From positions 1-64,000 of the forward strand of contig NZ_JAQUHV010000011.1 of NCBI RefSeq assembly GCF_028681615.1: 64,000 nucleotides of DNA. The letters run 5' to 3'. The stretch is from Sulfuricurvum sp. (GTDB taxonomy: Bacteria > Campylobacterota > Campylobacteria > Campylobacterales > Sulfurimonadaceae). A program made the translations under genes and the position numbers. Positions within the stretch are counted from its first letter, which is position 1. Each line of letters starts with the position of its first letter. Positions 50,845 through 57,257 of the stretch are shown one piece after another. Under the pieces are notes generated by a model, which saw only the letters and a list, made by a program, of their open reading frames with translations, searched no databases and was not told the DNA's origin.

Positions 50845-52023
50845 ATGATTAAATTACAAAAAATAAACCCGATTAGCGATGCCATTTTAGAAGAAATCGG
50901 ATTCAATTGGCATACCGACAGCGACAACACCAAATACGTTGCGGATGAGCTGGTCATCGTCACGGATAAAGAGGCAGAAGCCTATTATGATGCAGTCAAC
51001 GAGCTGTATGATATGTATGCGACAGCAGCCCAATATGTCATCGATAATAACCTCTTTTTTGAATTGGGTATCCCGTTTAATCTTGTAGAAATGATTAAAA
51101 AAAGCTGGGAAAACGATGTACACTGGCACCTCTACGGTCGATTTGACCTCTCGGGAGGAATCGGTGGTGCTCCGATCAAACTGATTGAGTTCAATGCAGA
51201 CACCCCTACGGCACTTTTCGAAACTGTGATTTTGCAATGGGCACTCTTAAAATACAACGAAATGGATGAAGAGCGTCAATTTAATACTATTTATGAAGCG
51301 ATCACTGAAAACTTTCGCCGTCTCATCACGCTCTTCGATGATACCGAGAAATTTGATTCACTGTATGAGGGGTGGAAAATTCTTTTCAGTGCGGTAAGCG
51401 GCAATGTCGAAGAGGAACAAACGGTTCGATTGCTACAACAAATGGCATCCGATGCAGGTTTTAATACAGGATTCGAACCCTTAGGGGGAGTCACATTTGA
51501 TGGTGAGGGGATTTATGATAGTGAAGAATCCCCGTATGAATATTGGTTTAAACTCTTTCCGTGGGAAGATATCGCAATCGAAGAGCCTGAACTGGCCACC
51601 TTACTCACAAACATCATGAACAATCAAAAGGCCATTATTTTAAATCCGGCCTACACTCTTTTGTTTCAATCAAAAGGGATGATGAAAATACTGTGCGACC
51701 TCTTCCCGGATTCACCTTATCTTCTAAAAACGTCATTTGAGCCGCTCCAAGGGGTTCAGCAGGTCGAAAAACGGATGTTTGGACGTGAAGGTGCCAATGT
51801 ACGTATTGTGGATGCTTCTCTCAACACCATTGAAGCCAATGACGGACCTTACGGTAATTTCAAACCGATCTATCAAGAGTATGTCGAGTTTCCGAAAGAT
51901 ACAAAAGGTAATAGATATCAGGCAGGTGTCTTTTTCGCCTATGAAGCATGCGGTTTAGGATTCCGAAGAGGCGGTAAAATTTTGGGCAATATGTCCAAAT
52001 TTGTCGGGCATGTATTACAGTAG
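50845..52023 (+). CDS. Glutathionylspermidine synthase-like ATP-grasp ligase
   Basis: A 392-residue protein of the GSP_synth family (YgiC/YjfC-like), an ATP-grasp ligase. Recognisable segments are WHLYGRFDLSGG, LIEFNADTPTALFE, PWEDIAIEEPEL, and a C-terminal YEACGLGFRRGGKIL. Relatives lack the amidase half of true glutathionylspermidine synthetase and their substrates are unknown. GGAGG immediately before ATG 50845 lies in the end of the lipoprotein gene. Its last 9 bases overlap the convergent GGDEF-EAL gene. Confidence 0.88.
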   Translation: MIKLQKINPISDAILEEIGFNWHTDSDNTKYVADELVIVTDKEAEAYYDAVNELYDMYATAAQYVIDNNLFFELGIPFNLVEMIKKSWENDVHWHLYGRFDLSGGIGGAPIKLIEFNADTPTALFETVILQWALLKYNEMDEERQFNTIYEAITENFRRLITLFDDTEKFDSLYEGWKILFSAVSGNVEEEQTVRLLQQMASDAGFNTGFEPLGGVTFDGEGIYDSEESPYEYWFKLFPWEDIAIEEPELATLLTNIMNNQKAIILNPAYTLLFQSKGMMKILCDLFPDSPYLLKTSFEPLQGVQQVEKRMFGREGANVRIVDASLNTIEANDGPYGNFKPIYQEYVEFPKDTKGNRYQAGVFFAYEACGLGFRRGGKILGNMSKFVGHVLQ

Positions 52024-53937
52024 TGATGTCGGTTTACCGGTAAAATAACCCTGTGAATAATCGACGCCGATTGCCTTGATCGTGTTGTAAATTTCCTCAT
52101 CCGATACAAATTCTGCAATTGTTTTCGCATCAATTTTCTTGGCGAAATCAATAATCGTTTCAACAATAATATGATGACGTGAGTTCCCTGCGATCTCCCG
52201 TATCAATGAACCGTCAATCTTGATGTAATCCACACCCAGTTTGAGTATGTTTTCAAAATTAGAATACCCCGTTCCAAAATCATCAATCGCTATTTTTGCC
52301 CCCAAAACTTTTACCTGTGAAATAAACCGTGTCACTTCTTCGTAACTTTCAATCCCCTCAGATTCTAAAATCTCAAAAACGATCCGGTCTGCCGTACCGG
52401 TTTCGGTGATCGTTTTAATAATTTCACTGACCGTATGAGGATTACGAATATCACTGTCTGATAGATTAATTGAAAATTCCTCTTTGCGTGAAGCGAAGAG
52501 TGTACAAGCCTGATAAACCACTTCAAGGGTAATACGGGGATAAAGTTTCGTTTGTTTTGCAATCGATAAAAACTTGATCGGAGGAATGATATTTCCTTCG
52601 TCATCTATCATCCGTACCAATGTTTCATATTTATGAACCATCCCCGTATTTAGATTCACTATAGGCTGATAGTGACAAATAATACGATTATCAAATAATG
52701 CTCTACGGACATTAGAAGCCATTGTCAGATTCGATCGATATTGTTCTTCAATTCCTTCTTCATGATTGTAAAAGGCTATCTGTTTTCGATTCGCTTTCGC
52801 ATGATGCAAAGCAATATCAGCCCGGGTCAGTACTTTCTCATTTCCCATAGCGACACCGATACTTATTCGGATATTGAAGCTCTCTTCTTTGACCACAAAT
52901 GTTTTTTCATCTAATAATTTTGCAAGTATATTTAACCGATGTTCCAATTCATTTTGGTTATATAAATTGCTAAATACCAAAGCAAATTCGTCACCTCCTA
53001 AACGGTAAGATGCACTCGATAACTCCTTGAGCCATAACGCGAATTGCTTGAGTATTTCATCACCGATTGAAATTCCGAAGAAATCATTTACTTCTTTGAA
53101 ATCATCTATATTGACGATTGCCAAAGCTAAGAGATCCCCTTGTAACAATATTTCTTGAAGCTTGTATCGATTGGGTAAATTTGTCAGTTGATCCGTATAA
53201 AACTGAGTTTCCAACTCACGGGTTTTTTCATTGACCTTCATTTCAAGAGAGCTGTTCATCGTTTCCATTTGTTCCAGATAGTGTTGGGTCGTTTTTTGCA
53301 TCGTATTAAATGCGGTAACTATCTGCTCGATCTCAACACTGCCGTCTTCCTCAAACATCATTTGATCACCCGGCTTGTAATAACGGACTTTTTTAGCGAT
53401 CTTAGTAAGAGGAGAGAGAAGATAACGAACCCACCAGACTGCGGCAAAAAAAATCACGGCGATACTTACCCATACACCATATACGATTTTATGAATGGAT
53501 TTACGCGTCTCTTCATAGGCTAAATCACTGTAACGCAATGTGACGGAACCCATCAATTCTCCGCTTGTAGGTTCTTTCAATATATGCGTGACGCTCATCG
53601 CTTCATGTCGGGATTTCAAATGTTCTTTACTGTGCGTATAAAAATAAAGTCTCTTTCCGCTCTGATCACGAATCTCCAATTCCGTTACATCGGGTACCGA
53701 TACGGCAGGAGCAACTTTTTGTGAAATTTGATCGTAAAACTTTAAATAAAGAGCAATTTGAAGCGGTTTTTCAATGGTTTCCAGCAATAAATTCGCTTTT
53801 TGTTTTTCTGAAACCAAGATCGTGTTTTCAAAAACAATACTGACTATGGTTCCAATTGACATCAAAATCAAAAGGAATATTAAAATCAAAGATCCTACGA
53901 TTTTATATGAAAGACGAGTCTTAGAGAGAAACATCAT
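52015..53937 (-). CDS. Membrane-bound HAMP-GGDEF-EAL c-di-GMP protein
   Basis: A 640-residue inner-membrane protein. Two helices (about 12-35 and 150-170) flank a periplasmic domain of about 115 residues, followed by a HAMP-like linker, coiled coil, GGDEF domain (about 245-395; YRLGGDEF intact, no RxxD inhibitory site) and EAL domain (about 405-640). The EAL motif reads ETL, but N, E, DD, K, E and Q positions (NLSDSD, IDDFGTGYSN, IKIDGS, AEFVS) look kept, so phosphodiesterase activity is possible. The layout resembles YfiN/LapD-type proteins. It is divergent from the acyltransferase-TonB-YfiR operon and shares its promoter region. Confidence 0.9.
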   Translation of the reverse strand: MMFLSKTRLSYKIVGSLILIFLLILMSIGTIVSIVFENTILVSEKQKANLLLETIEKPLQIALYLKFYDQISQKVAPAVSVPDVTELEIRDQSGKRLYFYTHSKEHLKSRHEAMSVTHILKEPTSGELMGSVTLRYSDLAYEETRKSIHKIVYGVWVSIAVIFFAAVWWVRYLLSPLTKIAKKVRYYKPGDQMMFEEDGSVEIEQIVTAFNTMQKTTQHYLEQMETMNSSLEMKVNEKTRELETQFYTDQLTNLPNRYKLQEILLQGDLLALAIVNIDDFKEVNDFFGISIGDEILKQFALWLKELSSASYRLGGDEFALVFSNLYNQNELEHRLNILAKLLDEKTFVVKEESFNIRISIGVAMGNEKVLTRADIALHHAKANRKQIAFYNHEEGIEEQYRSNLTMASNVRRALFDNRIICHYQPIVNLNTGMVHKYETLVRMIDDEGNIIPPIKFLSIAKQTKLYPRITLEVVYQACTLFASRKEEFSINLSDSDIRNPHTVSEIIKTITETGTADRIVFEILESEGIESYEEVTRFISQVKVLGAKIAIDDFGTGYSNFENILKLGVDYIKIDGSLIREIAGNSRHHIIVETIIDFAKKIDAKTIAEFVSDEEIYNTIKAIGVDYSQGYFTGKPTSLL

Positions 53938-53998
53938 AGATGCACCTTAATGTATTTCAAAATTACCGCATGTTAAGTAAAGCTGAAAATTTATTCGT

Positions 53999-54023
53999 AA
54001 ATTACGTAATTTTATCCTATAAT
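53999..54023 (+). promoter_or_regulatory. Operator-like palindrome and -10 box of the acyltransferase operon
   Basis: AAATTACGTAATTT at 53999-54012 is a perfect 14-base palindrome. A TATAAT -10 box follows at 54018-54023. The palindrome occupies the -35 to -10 spacer, a classic repressor position. It lies in the 173 bases between the divergent GGDEF-EAL gene and the GTG start at 54111. Confidence 0.55.
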
Positions 54024-54110
54024 ATACCGAATAAATCATTTACTTTATTTAGCGTTGATGAATTGTTAAATATCTATCTTTCAACCAATATAGAAACGAA
54101 GGTAAAAATA

Positions 54111-54653
54111 GTGAAATGCACAGTAGCATCAACGGAAATGGAACGGACTGCTATATTGCGGCAACGGTATGATATTTTTGTAAAAGAGTCCGGTTATTTT
54201 GTCCCGAAAGAGAAAGATGATCGACTTGAATACGATTCATATGACGACCACTCCCTTTTATTCGGGGTGTGGGAGAACGGATCTTTGATTGCATCGTGCC
54301 GACTTGTTCTTCCAAACTCTTCATTGGGATTACCGACACTTAAAGCAATGGAAATCGATGCGGACAGAATCCAACGTGATCAGCCTACAGCCGAGATTTC
54401 ACGTATTACTATTGCCCCGGAGCACAGAGTTTTTAGAAAAACGATCAAAATTTTGCAAACGATGCAAGAAGAGATAAATCGGGTCTCTTCCACGTGTGGA
54501 ATAAAACAATTTATAGGAGCGGTTGAACCCAGTTTTTTACGACTTCTTAACTGTTCTAGACTCTCTTATCAGCCGATCGGTCCATTGCAACACCTTATCG
54601 GCGCAGAGCGATATCCGGTTATATTAACACATAAAAATTTGACTATACCCTGA
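54111..54653 (+). CDS. LuxI/FeeM-like N-acyltransferase (autoinducer-synthase superfamily)
   Basis: A 180-residue GNAT-fold protein. The residues invariant in acyl-homoserine-lactone synthases are present in order: R19 and F23 (RYDIF), E40, D42 and D45 (EYDSYD), R64 (SCRL), E95 and R98 (EISR). Spacings within each cluster match LuxI proteins exactly. The same pattern occurs in FeeM-type N-acyl amino acid synthases and PEP-CTERM/exosortase-linked acyltransferases, so the product is uncertain. Start: GTG 54111 with GAAGG 8 bases upstream, downstream of a good -10 box. An open frame extends back to ATG 53940 across the promoter and is rejected. The TonB receptor gene follows after 13 bases. Confidence 0.75.
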   Translation: MKCTVASTEMERTAILRQRYDIFVKESGYFVPKEKDDRLEYDSYDDHSLLFGVWENGSLIASCRLVLPNSSLGLPTLKAMEIDADRIQRDQPTAEISRITIAPEHRVFRKTIKILQTMQEEINRVSSTCGIKQFIGAVEPSFLRLLNCSRLSYQPIGPLQHLIGAERYPVILTHKNLTIP

Positions 54654-54666
54654 AAGAACCCAGACT

Positions 54667-56727
54667 ATGAATTACTCCTCACTCGCTTTATTGTTAATCC
54701 CTTTCTCTCTCTTTGCCGCTGAGTCAGAAGTAAACTCCAATCTCTTTCATAATCTCACTGATGATATGAGTACTATTGCACAAACGGCAAAAGATCAACG
54801 GGCGAATATCGATTATCTTCCGTTTATCATGACGGTATTTGACGGTGAAGAACTTGCCCATGCAGGGGCTTCATCGTTAAAAGAAGCTCTGAGTCTTGCA
54901 GCAGGTGTCAATATCGCCAGTGACAATCTCTCTTTATTTAACCCTGTTTTCCGCGGTTCCAATCCTGTCGCATACGGACAAAGCAAGCTGATCGTTGACG
55001 GCATCGAAGTCAATGACCTTTTTTTCGACGGTTATACCGCCTATCTAAGTATGCCGATTGACATGATCAAACGGATCGAAATCGTCCGTGGCCCGGGCAG
55101 CTACAGTGACGGTCATTCAGGCTATGCGGGATCCATCGTCGTCACCACCTATAAAGGGGAAGCTCCAGCTGATGGAGTCAGTCGTTGGTTTGCCTCTGCA
55201 GGTACGTACGGTACTAAAAAAGCCGGAGTTTCCTATGCAACAAGAGATGATGATTTTTCTTTTGCGGCAGATCTGTATACCGTCCATGATAGTCTCTCCC
55301 TAACATATGGGTTGGATGGCCTTTCGAATAATCTTCTCGGCGCTCCTAATGCCCACCTCGCACGCTCAGGCGATGCCCCGGCAGCTACCGATGCAACTAT
55401 GCTTTCTGCATCGCTCTCCAAGGGAGCCTTTTTTGCTGACGGCCGTCTCTCTACCTATCGCCACGGTTCCGGAGGCGGTATAAACTATGCATTAGCTTCT
55501 GAAGGAGACCACTACAATATCGACCAGTGGCAAATCAGAGCAGGTGCCCACTATAACATAAATAGTTTTTCCGGAACCCTCCAAGCCGCGGTGATTCAAG
55601 ACAGCTTCACGAGTCACCAGCTCCTTGCACCTGCAGGACTGAGACTTCCCTCTCTTACACCGCCTACAACAATCGTAACCTATCCGGACGGTTTTTATGG
55701 GATTCATGAAGCATTTATACGGACATATCGAATTAACAATACCCTTGCAGGAAGTTTACTAGGTGGTGACACCACTTTTGGGATCAGCGGTTCATGGAGC
55801 AATGTTACCTCAGAAAAAACCATCACTACCGACCGAGACAGCGGAACGGGAATGACCGATTATTCGACGACGCTTCCTTTTTTCAATCCAAAAGGCTCCA
55901 TCAATAATCTGACAGCCTATATGACCTATGAAAAGGTCATCTCCCCCTCTCTCACCGGGTATGGCTCACTTACGATCGATCGAAGAAATGGCATTAGCCC
56001 CCAGGTTGATCCGAGGATTGCAGCTGTCTATGCGATCGATCCTGCAAACCTGATCAAATTTTCAATCTCCCGTGCCCACAGAAATCCTTCATGGCAGGAG
56101 ATGTTTACCCTTAATAATAAAGCACGTTGGGGAAATCCGGATTTGTTGCCTGAAACCGTCATGGCATATGAAACGCAATTTATTCATCAATTCGAAACAG
56201 ATCATACCCTTTCGGTTAACCTCTTTCACCTAAACAATAACAATCAGATTTATCTGCAATACAATACTTCATTGGCTCGTTATGAGTACGTTAACGGGTC
56301 TAAAAGTACAATTCAGGGGATCGAAGGGGAGTGGCGGAAACGATATGATGCAACCACGTTCTATGCCGCATATACACATATATGGGCTGAAGACGGCAAT
56401 GGTGTGACATTGGCAAATGCTCCGTCTGATACAGCACGAGGATTTATTACACACAGTTTGAACGAAAACTGGTTCGGTTCTTTAGCCGGTCGATGGCAAA
56501 ATAAAATCCCAAGAGCAGCAACCGATACTCGCAATGATATGAAAGCAATCGGAATCGTCGATACTTCTATCGGATATAAACTTCCATACCTCAACAGCGA
56601 AATTCAATTTACGCTCAAAAATATATTTGATGAGAAAGAACTTTATCCAAGCCCTCCAAATACATATGACGGGGATTATCCGTCAACCGGACGCGCGTTT
56701 ATGGCAACACTACGGGGTACATTTTGA
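54667..56727 (+). CDS. TonB-dependent outer membrane receptor
   Basis: A 686-residue receptor, signal peptide MNYSSLALLLIPFSLFAA. The plug domain (about 45-165) has LKEALSLAAGVNIASD, VFRGSNPVAYGQSKLIVDGI and IKRIEIVRGPGSYSDG. A 22-stranded barrel fills the rest, ending STGRAFMATLRGTF with a terminal phenylalanine. No clear TonB box can be named. The ligand is unknown; catecholate or vitamin-like molecules are usual, and an acylated molecule is conceivable given the upstream acyltransferase. Its stop overlaps the YfiR-like gene by 4 bases. Confidence 0.93.
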   Translation: MNYSSLALLLIPFSLFAAESEVNSNLFHNLTDDMSTIAQTAKDQRANIDYLPFIMTVFDGEELAHAGASSLKEALSLAAGVNIASDNLSLFNPVFRGSNPVAYGQSKLIVDGIEVNDLFFDGYTAYLSMPIDMIKRIEIVRGPGSYSDGHSGYAGSIVVTTYKGEAPADGVSRWFASAGTYGTKKAGVSYATRDDDFSFAADLYTVHDSLSLTYGLDGLSNNLLGAPNAHLARSGDAPAATDATMLSASLSKGAFFADGRLSTYRHGSGGGINYALASEGDHYNIDQWQIRAGAHYNINSFSGTLQAAVIQDSFTSHQLLAPAGLRLPSLTPPTTIVTYPDGFYGIHEAFIRTYRINNTLAGSLLGGDTTFGISGSWSNVTSEKTITTDRDSGTGMTDYSTTLPFFNPKGSINNLTAYMTYEKVISPSLTGYGSLTIDRRNGISPQVDPRIAAVYAIDPANLIKFSISRAHRNPSWQEMFTLNNKARWGNPDLLPETVMAYETQFIHQFETDHTLSVNLFHLNNNNQIYLQYNTSLARYEYVNGSKSTIQGIEGEWRKRYDATTFYAAYTHIWAEDGNGVTLANAPSDTARGFITHSLNENWFGSLAGRWQNKIPRAATDTRNDMKAIGIVDTSIGYKLPYLNSEIQFTLKNIFDEKELYPSPPNTYDGDYPSTGRAFMATLRGTF

Positions 56728-57257
56728 AACGAATATTTTTGTTCCTTACCCTAAGCATAGCCGGATGGTGTGCATCGTATGATCCATTTTTATTGGATAC
56801 ACAGCTCACATTGCTGCCAAAAATTGCAATGCTCGATAAAAATATTGCTTTTGCACACAATAAATCTCCGATAAAAATTTTGATCGCCTATGAATCCGAT
56901 GATGAAGATACTGCCCTCAACTGCAGTAAAATTTTGATGAATAAATTCAATGGAATACTAAACGGACATCCGATTATTGTCACGACCCTCTCTTTCGATA
57001 AGCTCGATAATGCCGCATCGTATCATCTTGTTTATGCACTAAAAACGAATACGGCACAGCTTAAAAAGGTCCGTAATGCCATCGCTTCAACCGGTACACT
57101 TACCGCTCTTTATGATGCGGATAAACTCAGCGACGGCGGTATCTTACTCTCCATTCGTATGGAACGAGCTCCGGTCATTTTGATCAATGCAAAAATCTTA
57201 CGGGAAAATCGAATCTCTTTTCCCGACAGCCTGCTCGAGATTGCTAGAATTATCTAA
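56724..57257 (+). CDS. YfiR/DUF4154-like periplasmic protein
   Basis: A 177-residue exported protein, signal peptide MKRIFLFLTLSIAGWCASY. The C-terminal pattern, GILLSIRMERAPVILINAKILRENRISFPDSLLEIARII, follows the YfiR/DUF4154 template (a ligand or partner strand, INxxxxxxxxI, then LLxxAR). YfiR is the periplasmic repressor of the diguanylate cyclase YfiN. The usual paired cysteines of YfiR are not evident, so this is a divergent member. It is coupled to the TonB receptor and faces a membrane GGDEF-EAL protein across the operon promoter, which supports a signalling role. Confidence 0.65.
   Translation: MKRIFLFLTLSIAGWCASYDPFLLDTQLTLLPKIAMLDKNIAFAHNKSPIKILIAYESDDEDTALNCSKILMNKFNGILNGHPIIVTTLSFDKLDNAASYHLVYALKTNTAQLKKVRNAIASTGTLTALYDADKLSDGGILLSIRMERAPVILINAKILRENRISFPDSLLEIARII

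Follow-up and report, generated by a model that had tools for sequence, protein, structure and literature searches.

Organization of the locus

The window analyzed here is a stretch of 64,000 nucleotides of contig NZ_JAQUHV010000011.1 from the Sulfuricurvum sp. assembly GCF_028681615.1. At positions 52015–57257 it contains a four-gene locus that is proposed below to encode a signaling circuit acting on cyclic di-GMP (c-di-GMP). Three of the genes lie on the forward strand. The first (54111..54653, GTG start) encodes a 180-residue GNAT acyltransferase of the LuxI/FeeM superfamily, hereafter ACT, the proposed signal synthase. Directly downstream, as across genera, follows the gene for a 686-residue TonB-dependent receptor with plug and barrel domains (54667..56727), the proposed surface receptor of the ACT product, and then the gene for a 177-residue YfiR-fold periplasmic protein (56724..57257, TTG start), the proposed relay. 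The gap between ACT and the receptor gene measures 13 bases, and the start of the YfiR-like gene overlaps the receptor stop. The reverse strand (52015..53937) encodes a 640-residue membrane sensor-HAMP-GGDEF-EAL protein, the predicted c-di-GMP phosphodiesterase output. All four genes sit where the preliminary description of this DNA, made from the sequence without database searches, had placed them.

Between the output gene and ACT lies a divergent intergenic region (53938..54110). The ACT frame extends without a stop upstream to 53940; relatives have in-frame stops in this part and align from 54111, which rules out the long reading, confirms the start at 54111, and indicates that the frame upstream of it is probably non-coding. 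A promoter scan of 53938..54110 was uninformative, and a plasmid search gave no match.

Conservation of the four-gene unit

ACT is present in 36 of the 151 genomes of the window's family that were scanned. In a wider set, drawn from a phylum search and the scan of named genomes with duplicates removed before loci were counted, all four genes occur together in 53 distinct loci belonging to several Campylobacterota families. Other genera usually carry them as a collinear run of ACT, receptor, YfiR, and, in last position, GGDEF-EAL, while the divergent GGDEF-EAL gene is the arrangement of the window's genus. The same collinear order is seen in Nitratiruptor, Hydrogenimonas, Arcobacteraceae, and other Campylobacterales, and the genes outside the four-gene unit differ among loci. 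An operon conserved across the phylum rules out chance neighbors. One locus of the window's genus (L038) places the GGDEF-EAL gene between ACT and the receptor gene rather than outside them.

The YfiR profile separates the class found in this module (above 200 bits) from its paralogues (below 176 bits). Module-class YfiR occurs in 35 of the 36 ACT genomes versus 12 of the 115 without ACT (p = 7e-23, from a count that ignores shared ancestry). In the exception, G085, ACT is at the edge of its contig, and a search for the receptor gave no match. Co-occurrence of the four genes in relatives, named beforehand as a point on which their proposed connection should stand or fall, therefore holds. In about nine acyltransferase loci from outside Campylobacterota, the genome scan not extending to Pseudomonadota, no TonB receptor or YfiR match adjoins the acyltransferase gene.

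Family, fold, and likely product of the acyltransferase

The window ACT exceeds the Pfam cut-off for PF13444 (43.7 bits) and that for the FeeM family PF21926 (28.1 and 29.1 bits against a cut-off of 27, with some relatives just under it), in agreement with its first assignment to the acyl-homoserine lactone (AHL) synthase/FeeM superfamily. The Pfam scan returned no Autoind_synth (PF00765) match for the window protein, and one order-level homologue scores 23.6 against a cut-off of 24. At E < 0.01, Autoind_synth is matched by 23 and the FeeM model by 24 of 32 ACT homologues.

Seven residues are invariant across these 32 homologues (R19, E40, D42, D45, E95, S97, and R98). They comprise the leading Arg and the E-x-D-x2-D and E-x2-R motifs, the last two of which are elements common to LuxI and FeeM proteins. 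The Arg on the strand between the two motifs is also retained, reading the alignment with an offset of one residue. The preliminary description had further listed an R-x3-F motif; its Phe, which corresponds to the LuxI Phe, varies among Ile, Leu, Val, and Phe, and the LuxI Trp is not seen. From the LuxI core set R, F, W, D, D, R, E, R, ACT retains R, D, D, R, E, R. The AlphaFold model of ACT (mean predicted local distance difference test score, pLDDT, 91.6) has the AHL synthase TofI as its best Foldseek match. Alignment gives Z scores of 18.1–18.5 to the AHL synthases TofI, LasI, and BjaI, and 17.9 to FeeM, over 167–173 residues, so that LuxI and FeeM tie by fold within 1 Z; certain short GNAT enzymes reach equal Z scores over fewer residues.

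The TofI match and the proportion of homologues recognized by Autoind_synth would suit a true LuxI-type synthase, in which case the signal of the same circuit would be an AHL. We regard this as unlikely, given that the window ACT itself lacks an Autoind_synth match, that FeeM ties by fold and is matched by 24 of the homologues, that the LuxI Phe is not conserved, and that a carboxyl methyltransferase adjoining some ACTs is in keeping with a free carboxylate rather than with a lactone. The latter gene, of the leucine carboxyl methyltransferase family (PF04072), touches or nearly touches the upstream side of ACT in G417, L187, and G046; a gene of this type, assigned by similarity to the others, also stands beside a more distant acyltransferase in L164. 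Since a carboxyl-methylating enzyme is better suited to an N-acyl amino acid with its free carboxylate than to a lactone, its presence beside some ACTs suggests an N-acyl amino acid product. ACT is at least as good a fit to the FeeM-type N-acyl amino acid synthases as to LuxI; of the dual LuxI-type/FeeM-type identity first suggested, the FeeM side is upheld by the PF21926 score, and the LuxI side finds neither a match in the window protein nor an advantage by fold.

TIGR03694, the exosortase-linked model, is the top NCBIfam match for all 32 homologues, and ACT might accordingly be the acyltransferase of a PEP-CTERM/exosortase system. The window protein reaches 60.6 bits against a cut-off of 111.95 and covers half of the model, whereas Desulfobacterales and Nitrospirota proteins score 185–199 bits in the same kind of scan. 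At the sensitivity used, no exosortase was found in the window's own genome or in any of the 36 ACT genomes; 14 other genomes of the 151 have one. An exosortase connection, foreseen in the preliminary description as a possible refutation of a signaling role, can be given next to no credence. ACT constitutes a subfamily of its own near FeeM, TIGR03694, and LuxI.

It is also conceivable that ACT makes a membrane aminolipid in the manner of OlsB, while the receptor, YfiR, and c-di-GMP branch senses an unrelated ligand. One or two homologues do match ornithine acyltransferase models weakly, but this amounts to 1 of 32 per model, far under the cut-off. The conserved unit has no OlsA-type partner gene, and the matched synthase and receptor subtypes described below would not be expected of such an enzyme, making this alternative very improbable.

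Several related acyltransferases were noted in passing. Nitrospirota and Desulfobacterota proteins (L204, L205, L202, and L203) have conserved peptides in common with ACT; of these, L202 and L204 were tested and exceed the TIGR03694 cut-off, which makes them members of that family. L157–L162 (f7 and f4 genomes; e.g. L157:6792-7550, FeeM 63.9 bits) contain another FeeM-type acyltransferase, more distant and about 253 residues long. It adjoins response regulators and a histidine kinase of the 7TMR-DISM type, and may belong to a further signaling locus that combines a synthase with a sensor. Directly upstream of ACT in L149 and L150 lies a 1036-residue open reading frame (L150:5946-9053; family f11), which in L150 is an AcrB-type RND efflux pump and a possible exporter; it is not conserved elsewhere.

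The YfiR-like protein

The YfiR-like protein of the window scores 26.8 bits against DUF4154 (PF13689, a YfiR/HmsC-like family; cut-off 24.9), a model matched by only 8 of 32 homologues at E < 0.01. Its similarity to YfiR at the sequence level is slight. A sequence search of the Protein Data Bank with the family profile found no match, and YfiR was recovered by fold search only. The first 15 Foldseek matches of the predicted model (mean pLDDT 74) are all Pseudomonas aeruginosa YfiR, alone or in complex, and alignment to this protein gives a Z score of 12.7 and a root-mean-square deviation of 3.3 over 143 residues. The original YfiR/DUF4154-like assignment is thus borne out by both profile and fold. 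P. aeruginosa YfiR is under disulphide control. The family described here has no conserved cysteines, and 17 of the 32 homologues have none at all in the mature part, so disulphide control is not expected.

The GGDEF-EAL output protein

Pfam identifies both GGDEF and EAL domains in the membrane protein. HAMP falls below the cut-off in the window sequence, but 16 of 29 homologues match it at E < 0.01. CHASE8 gave no Pfam match, leaving the periplasmic domain unnamed. The EAL catalytic residues are all invariant across the 29 homologues. Within the GGDEF domain, every one of the 29 has Asn (Asn276) at the position of the first metal-binding Asp, as aligned to PA0861; the signature motif is SGDEF in 14 of them and GGDEF in 6, the other 9 having different variants. 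Residues were assigned to metal and substrate sites by way of the known PleD and EAL structures. With its intact EAL site and degenerate GGDEF site, the protein is probably a phosphodiesterase in which the GGDEF domain has a regulatory role. Its description as a HAMP-GGDEF-EAL membrane protein stands, for HAMP by way of the homologues, but the suggested YfiN/LapD type does not: as judged by sequence it is not an active diguanylate cyclase output like that of YfiBNR, and the invariant catalytic residues set it apart from LapD, whose degenerate EAL domain binds c-di-GMP without cleaving it.

The output that adjoins the receptor–YfiR pair varies among loci and may be a GGDEF-EAL protein, a GGDEF protein, or a histidine kinase. 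The histidine kinases (L103, L107, and L109) have the sensor-HAMP half in common with the output protein (profile positions 4–240, 63–72 bits). The window's own genome carries a second group of TonB receptor, YfiR-like protein, and plain GGDEF protein, without an acyltransferase (L110; G000:C4 ~166000-170000).

Synthase loss and matching of subtypes

The receptor tree comprises 75 rows, 15 of them without an adjacent ACT, and its starred branches require at least 11 label changes, for which the tree alone gives no direction. Remnants of ACT lie immediately upstream of an intact receptor gene in three loci. In L099, residues 1–36 and 150–195 abut, consistent with an internal deletion; L097 retains ACT as two fragments, and what is left in L107 is a small C-terminal piece (E = 0.006). 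The receptors of L103 and L031 are near-identical (branch lengths 0.018 and 0.010), with ACT present in L031 and a histidine kinase in its place in L103. Whole-genome profile searches found no ACT in G074, G109, G110, G118, G126, G134, or G137. The synthase has been lost repeatedly while receptor, YfiR, and output stay. Since relatives drop the synthase yet retain the other three genes, listen-only strains, which perceive the signal and do not produce it, probably exist.

Synthase and receptor subtypes match even where the genes are unlinked. The ACTs of L187, L189, L061 (G046), L152 (G417), and L064 group in a single subclade with full support, with 68–76% identity inside and mostly 42–50% to others. 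In G046 and G417 ACT is unlinked, and a receptor–YfiR–GGDEF/EAL triplet lies on another contig (L108 and L216). The receptors of these triplets group with those of L187 and L189, at 73–79% identity versus 67–71% for most other receptors; the L059 receptor is equally close to that of L108 (76%). Over 29 loci, ACT distances correlate best with those of the receptor (0.96; 0.86 with the window's genus excluded) and those of YfiR with those of the output protein (0.98; 0.94 on the same exclusion), locus pairs being non-independent in both cases. With this proviso of non-independent locus pairs, the pattern is as expected of a synthase–receptor pair and a transducer–output pair. A quorum-sensing system is expected to encode its synthase alongside the cognate receptor or, where the two lie apart, to keep them matched; such pairing is found here at the genomic level only.

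A proposed circuit

From these comparisons of sequence and gene order, the locus is probably a self-contained synthase–receptor–transducer circuit that sets c-di-GMP via the TonB receptor. ACT, judging from its family and active-site residues, would couple the acyl chain of an acyl-ACP to an amino acid or a similar amine, and the product would then leave the cell. Operon structure and matched subtypes suggest that it could be bound at the cell surface by the neighboring TonB receptor. Ligand binding may alter the hold of the receptor on the YfiR-like protein, the receptor competing for YfiR much as YfiB does in YfiBNR, and free or bound YfiR would in turn switch the GGDEF-EAL protein, with c-di-GMP breakdown the step most likely affected. 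The favored direction is that accumulated signal would free the phosphodiesterase, c-di-GMP would drop, and cells would quit the attached state, though the sign could be the reverse. The route from an acylated molecule through receptor and YfiR to c-di-GMP, proposed in the preliminary description, has gained strong comparative support and has withstood both refutations foreseen there, as the four genes co-occur and the exosortase link is missing; the altered elements are the output, now a predicted phosphodiesterase, and the synthase, which fits FeeM at least as well as LuxI.

Some observations weigh against such a circuit. Most genomes of the window's family are without the module, and no dedicated exporter is conserved with it. 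The ACT tree has 13–14 of 50 splits in common with the trees of the other three genes, which have 25–27 in common among themselves; as ACT is a short gene, this low congruence may be noise, or it may reflect synthase exchange. Binding of the ACT product by the receptor is suggested only indirectly, by genomic pairing, and siderophore systems are likewise known to lose synthesis while keeping uptake.

The siderophore parallel, and the general rule that TonB receptors are importers, lend themselves to a different explanation, in which ACT would produce an acyl compound with surfactant or metal-binding properties as a public good, the receptor would import it as a nutrient or metal complex, and the YfiR/c-di-GMP branch would do no more than report its uptake. 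N-acyltyrosines are surfactants (PMC4897644), and alkane uptake has been proposed for receptors of the TOL_0244 type (PMC6304351). However, conservation of the module does not extend to any periplasmic binding protein, ABC importer, catabolic gene, or further biosynthetic gene; an acyltransferase alone would yield a weak chelator, and the sole conserved partners are signaling proteins. We therefore give uptake of a public good little weight against a signaling circuit.

The wider proposal is that the module represents a new class of cell–cell signaling across Campylobacterota, in which an N-acyl amino acid, made by a synthase of the same operon, is perceived by a dedicated surface TonB receptor and relayed by a YfiR-type protein to c-di-GMP breakdown, with distinct synthase–receptor subtypes and recurrent listen-only strains. 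In our estimation the chances of this being correct in all its parts are evenly balanced. If true, N-acyl amino acid-type molecules would gain a defined receptor, and TonB receptors a signaling route without sigma factors. The choice between attached and free life in Campylobacterota of vents, sediments, and aquifers would become open to direct test, and receiver-only strains would make cheating and eavesdropping testable.

Comparison with known systems

The usual partner of an acyl-signal synthase is a cytoplasmic receptor of the LuxR type. ACT has the synthase fold and core residues of LuxI, but no LuxR-type Autoind_bind domain was found in the 151 genomes, which rules out a LuxR-type circuit; the receptor of the locus is in the outer membrane, and the output is c-di-GMP. 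What sets the locus apart is a LuxI/FeeM-superfamily synthase tied phylum-wide to a receptor of the outer membrane and to a c-di-GMP enzyme. Searches of the open-access literature, with preprints and most subscription journals outside their scope, gave nothing relevant on YfiR with a TonB receptor or acyltransferase, nor on such a circuit.

ACT resembles the FeeM-type synthases in its PF21926 score, fold (Z 17.9), and conserved active-site Glu, and differs in its link to a receptor and a c-di-GMP enzyme; the known exosortase-linked subset of these synthases (cited in PMC4897644) is another one. The N-acyltyrosine synthases Nas343 and Nas354 are also FeeM-type enzymes tied to c-di-GMP, but as fusions with c-di-GMP-binding PilZ, with neither receptor nor YfiR, and what N-acyl amino acid synthases do physiologically has been described as unclear (PMC4897644).

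As in YfiBNR of P. aeruginosa, a YfiR-fold periplasmic protein is encoded with a membrane HAMP-GGDEF sensor. In contrast to YfiBNR, the locus encodes a TonB receptor where that system has the lipoprotein YfiB, includes a synthase gene in the operon, combines an intact EAL domain with a degenerate GGDEF domain, and has a YfiR-like protein without conserved cysteines. Modular YfiR–YfiN cores with GGDEF-EAL and kinase outputs have already been described by Malone et al. (PMC3375315), in a text that does not mention TonB. A parallel to the receptor and relay is TOL_0244/TOL_0243 of Thalassolituus oleivorans, a TonB receptor and YfiR-like pair with NCBIfam models of its own, although the proteins of the locus score far under the cut-offs of these models (47 versus 645 and 22 versus 125). 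The TOL_0244 receptor is induced on a long-chain alkane, and a hydrophobic ligand has been proposed for it (PMC6304351). The pairing of receptor and YfiR as such was therefore known before, and there is precedent for a hydrophobic ligand.

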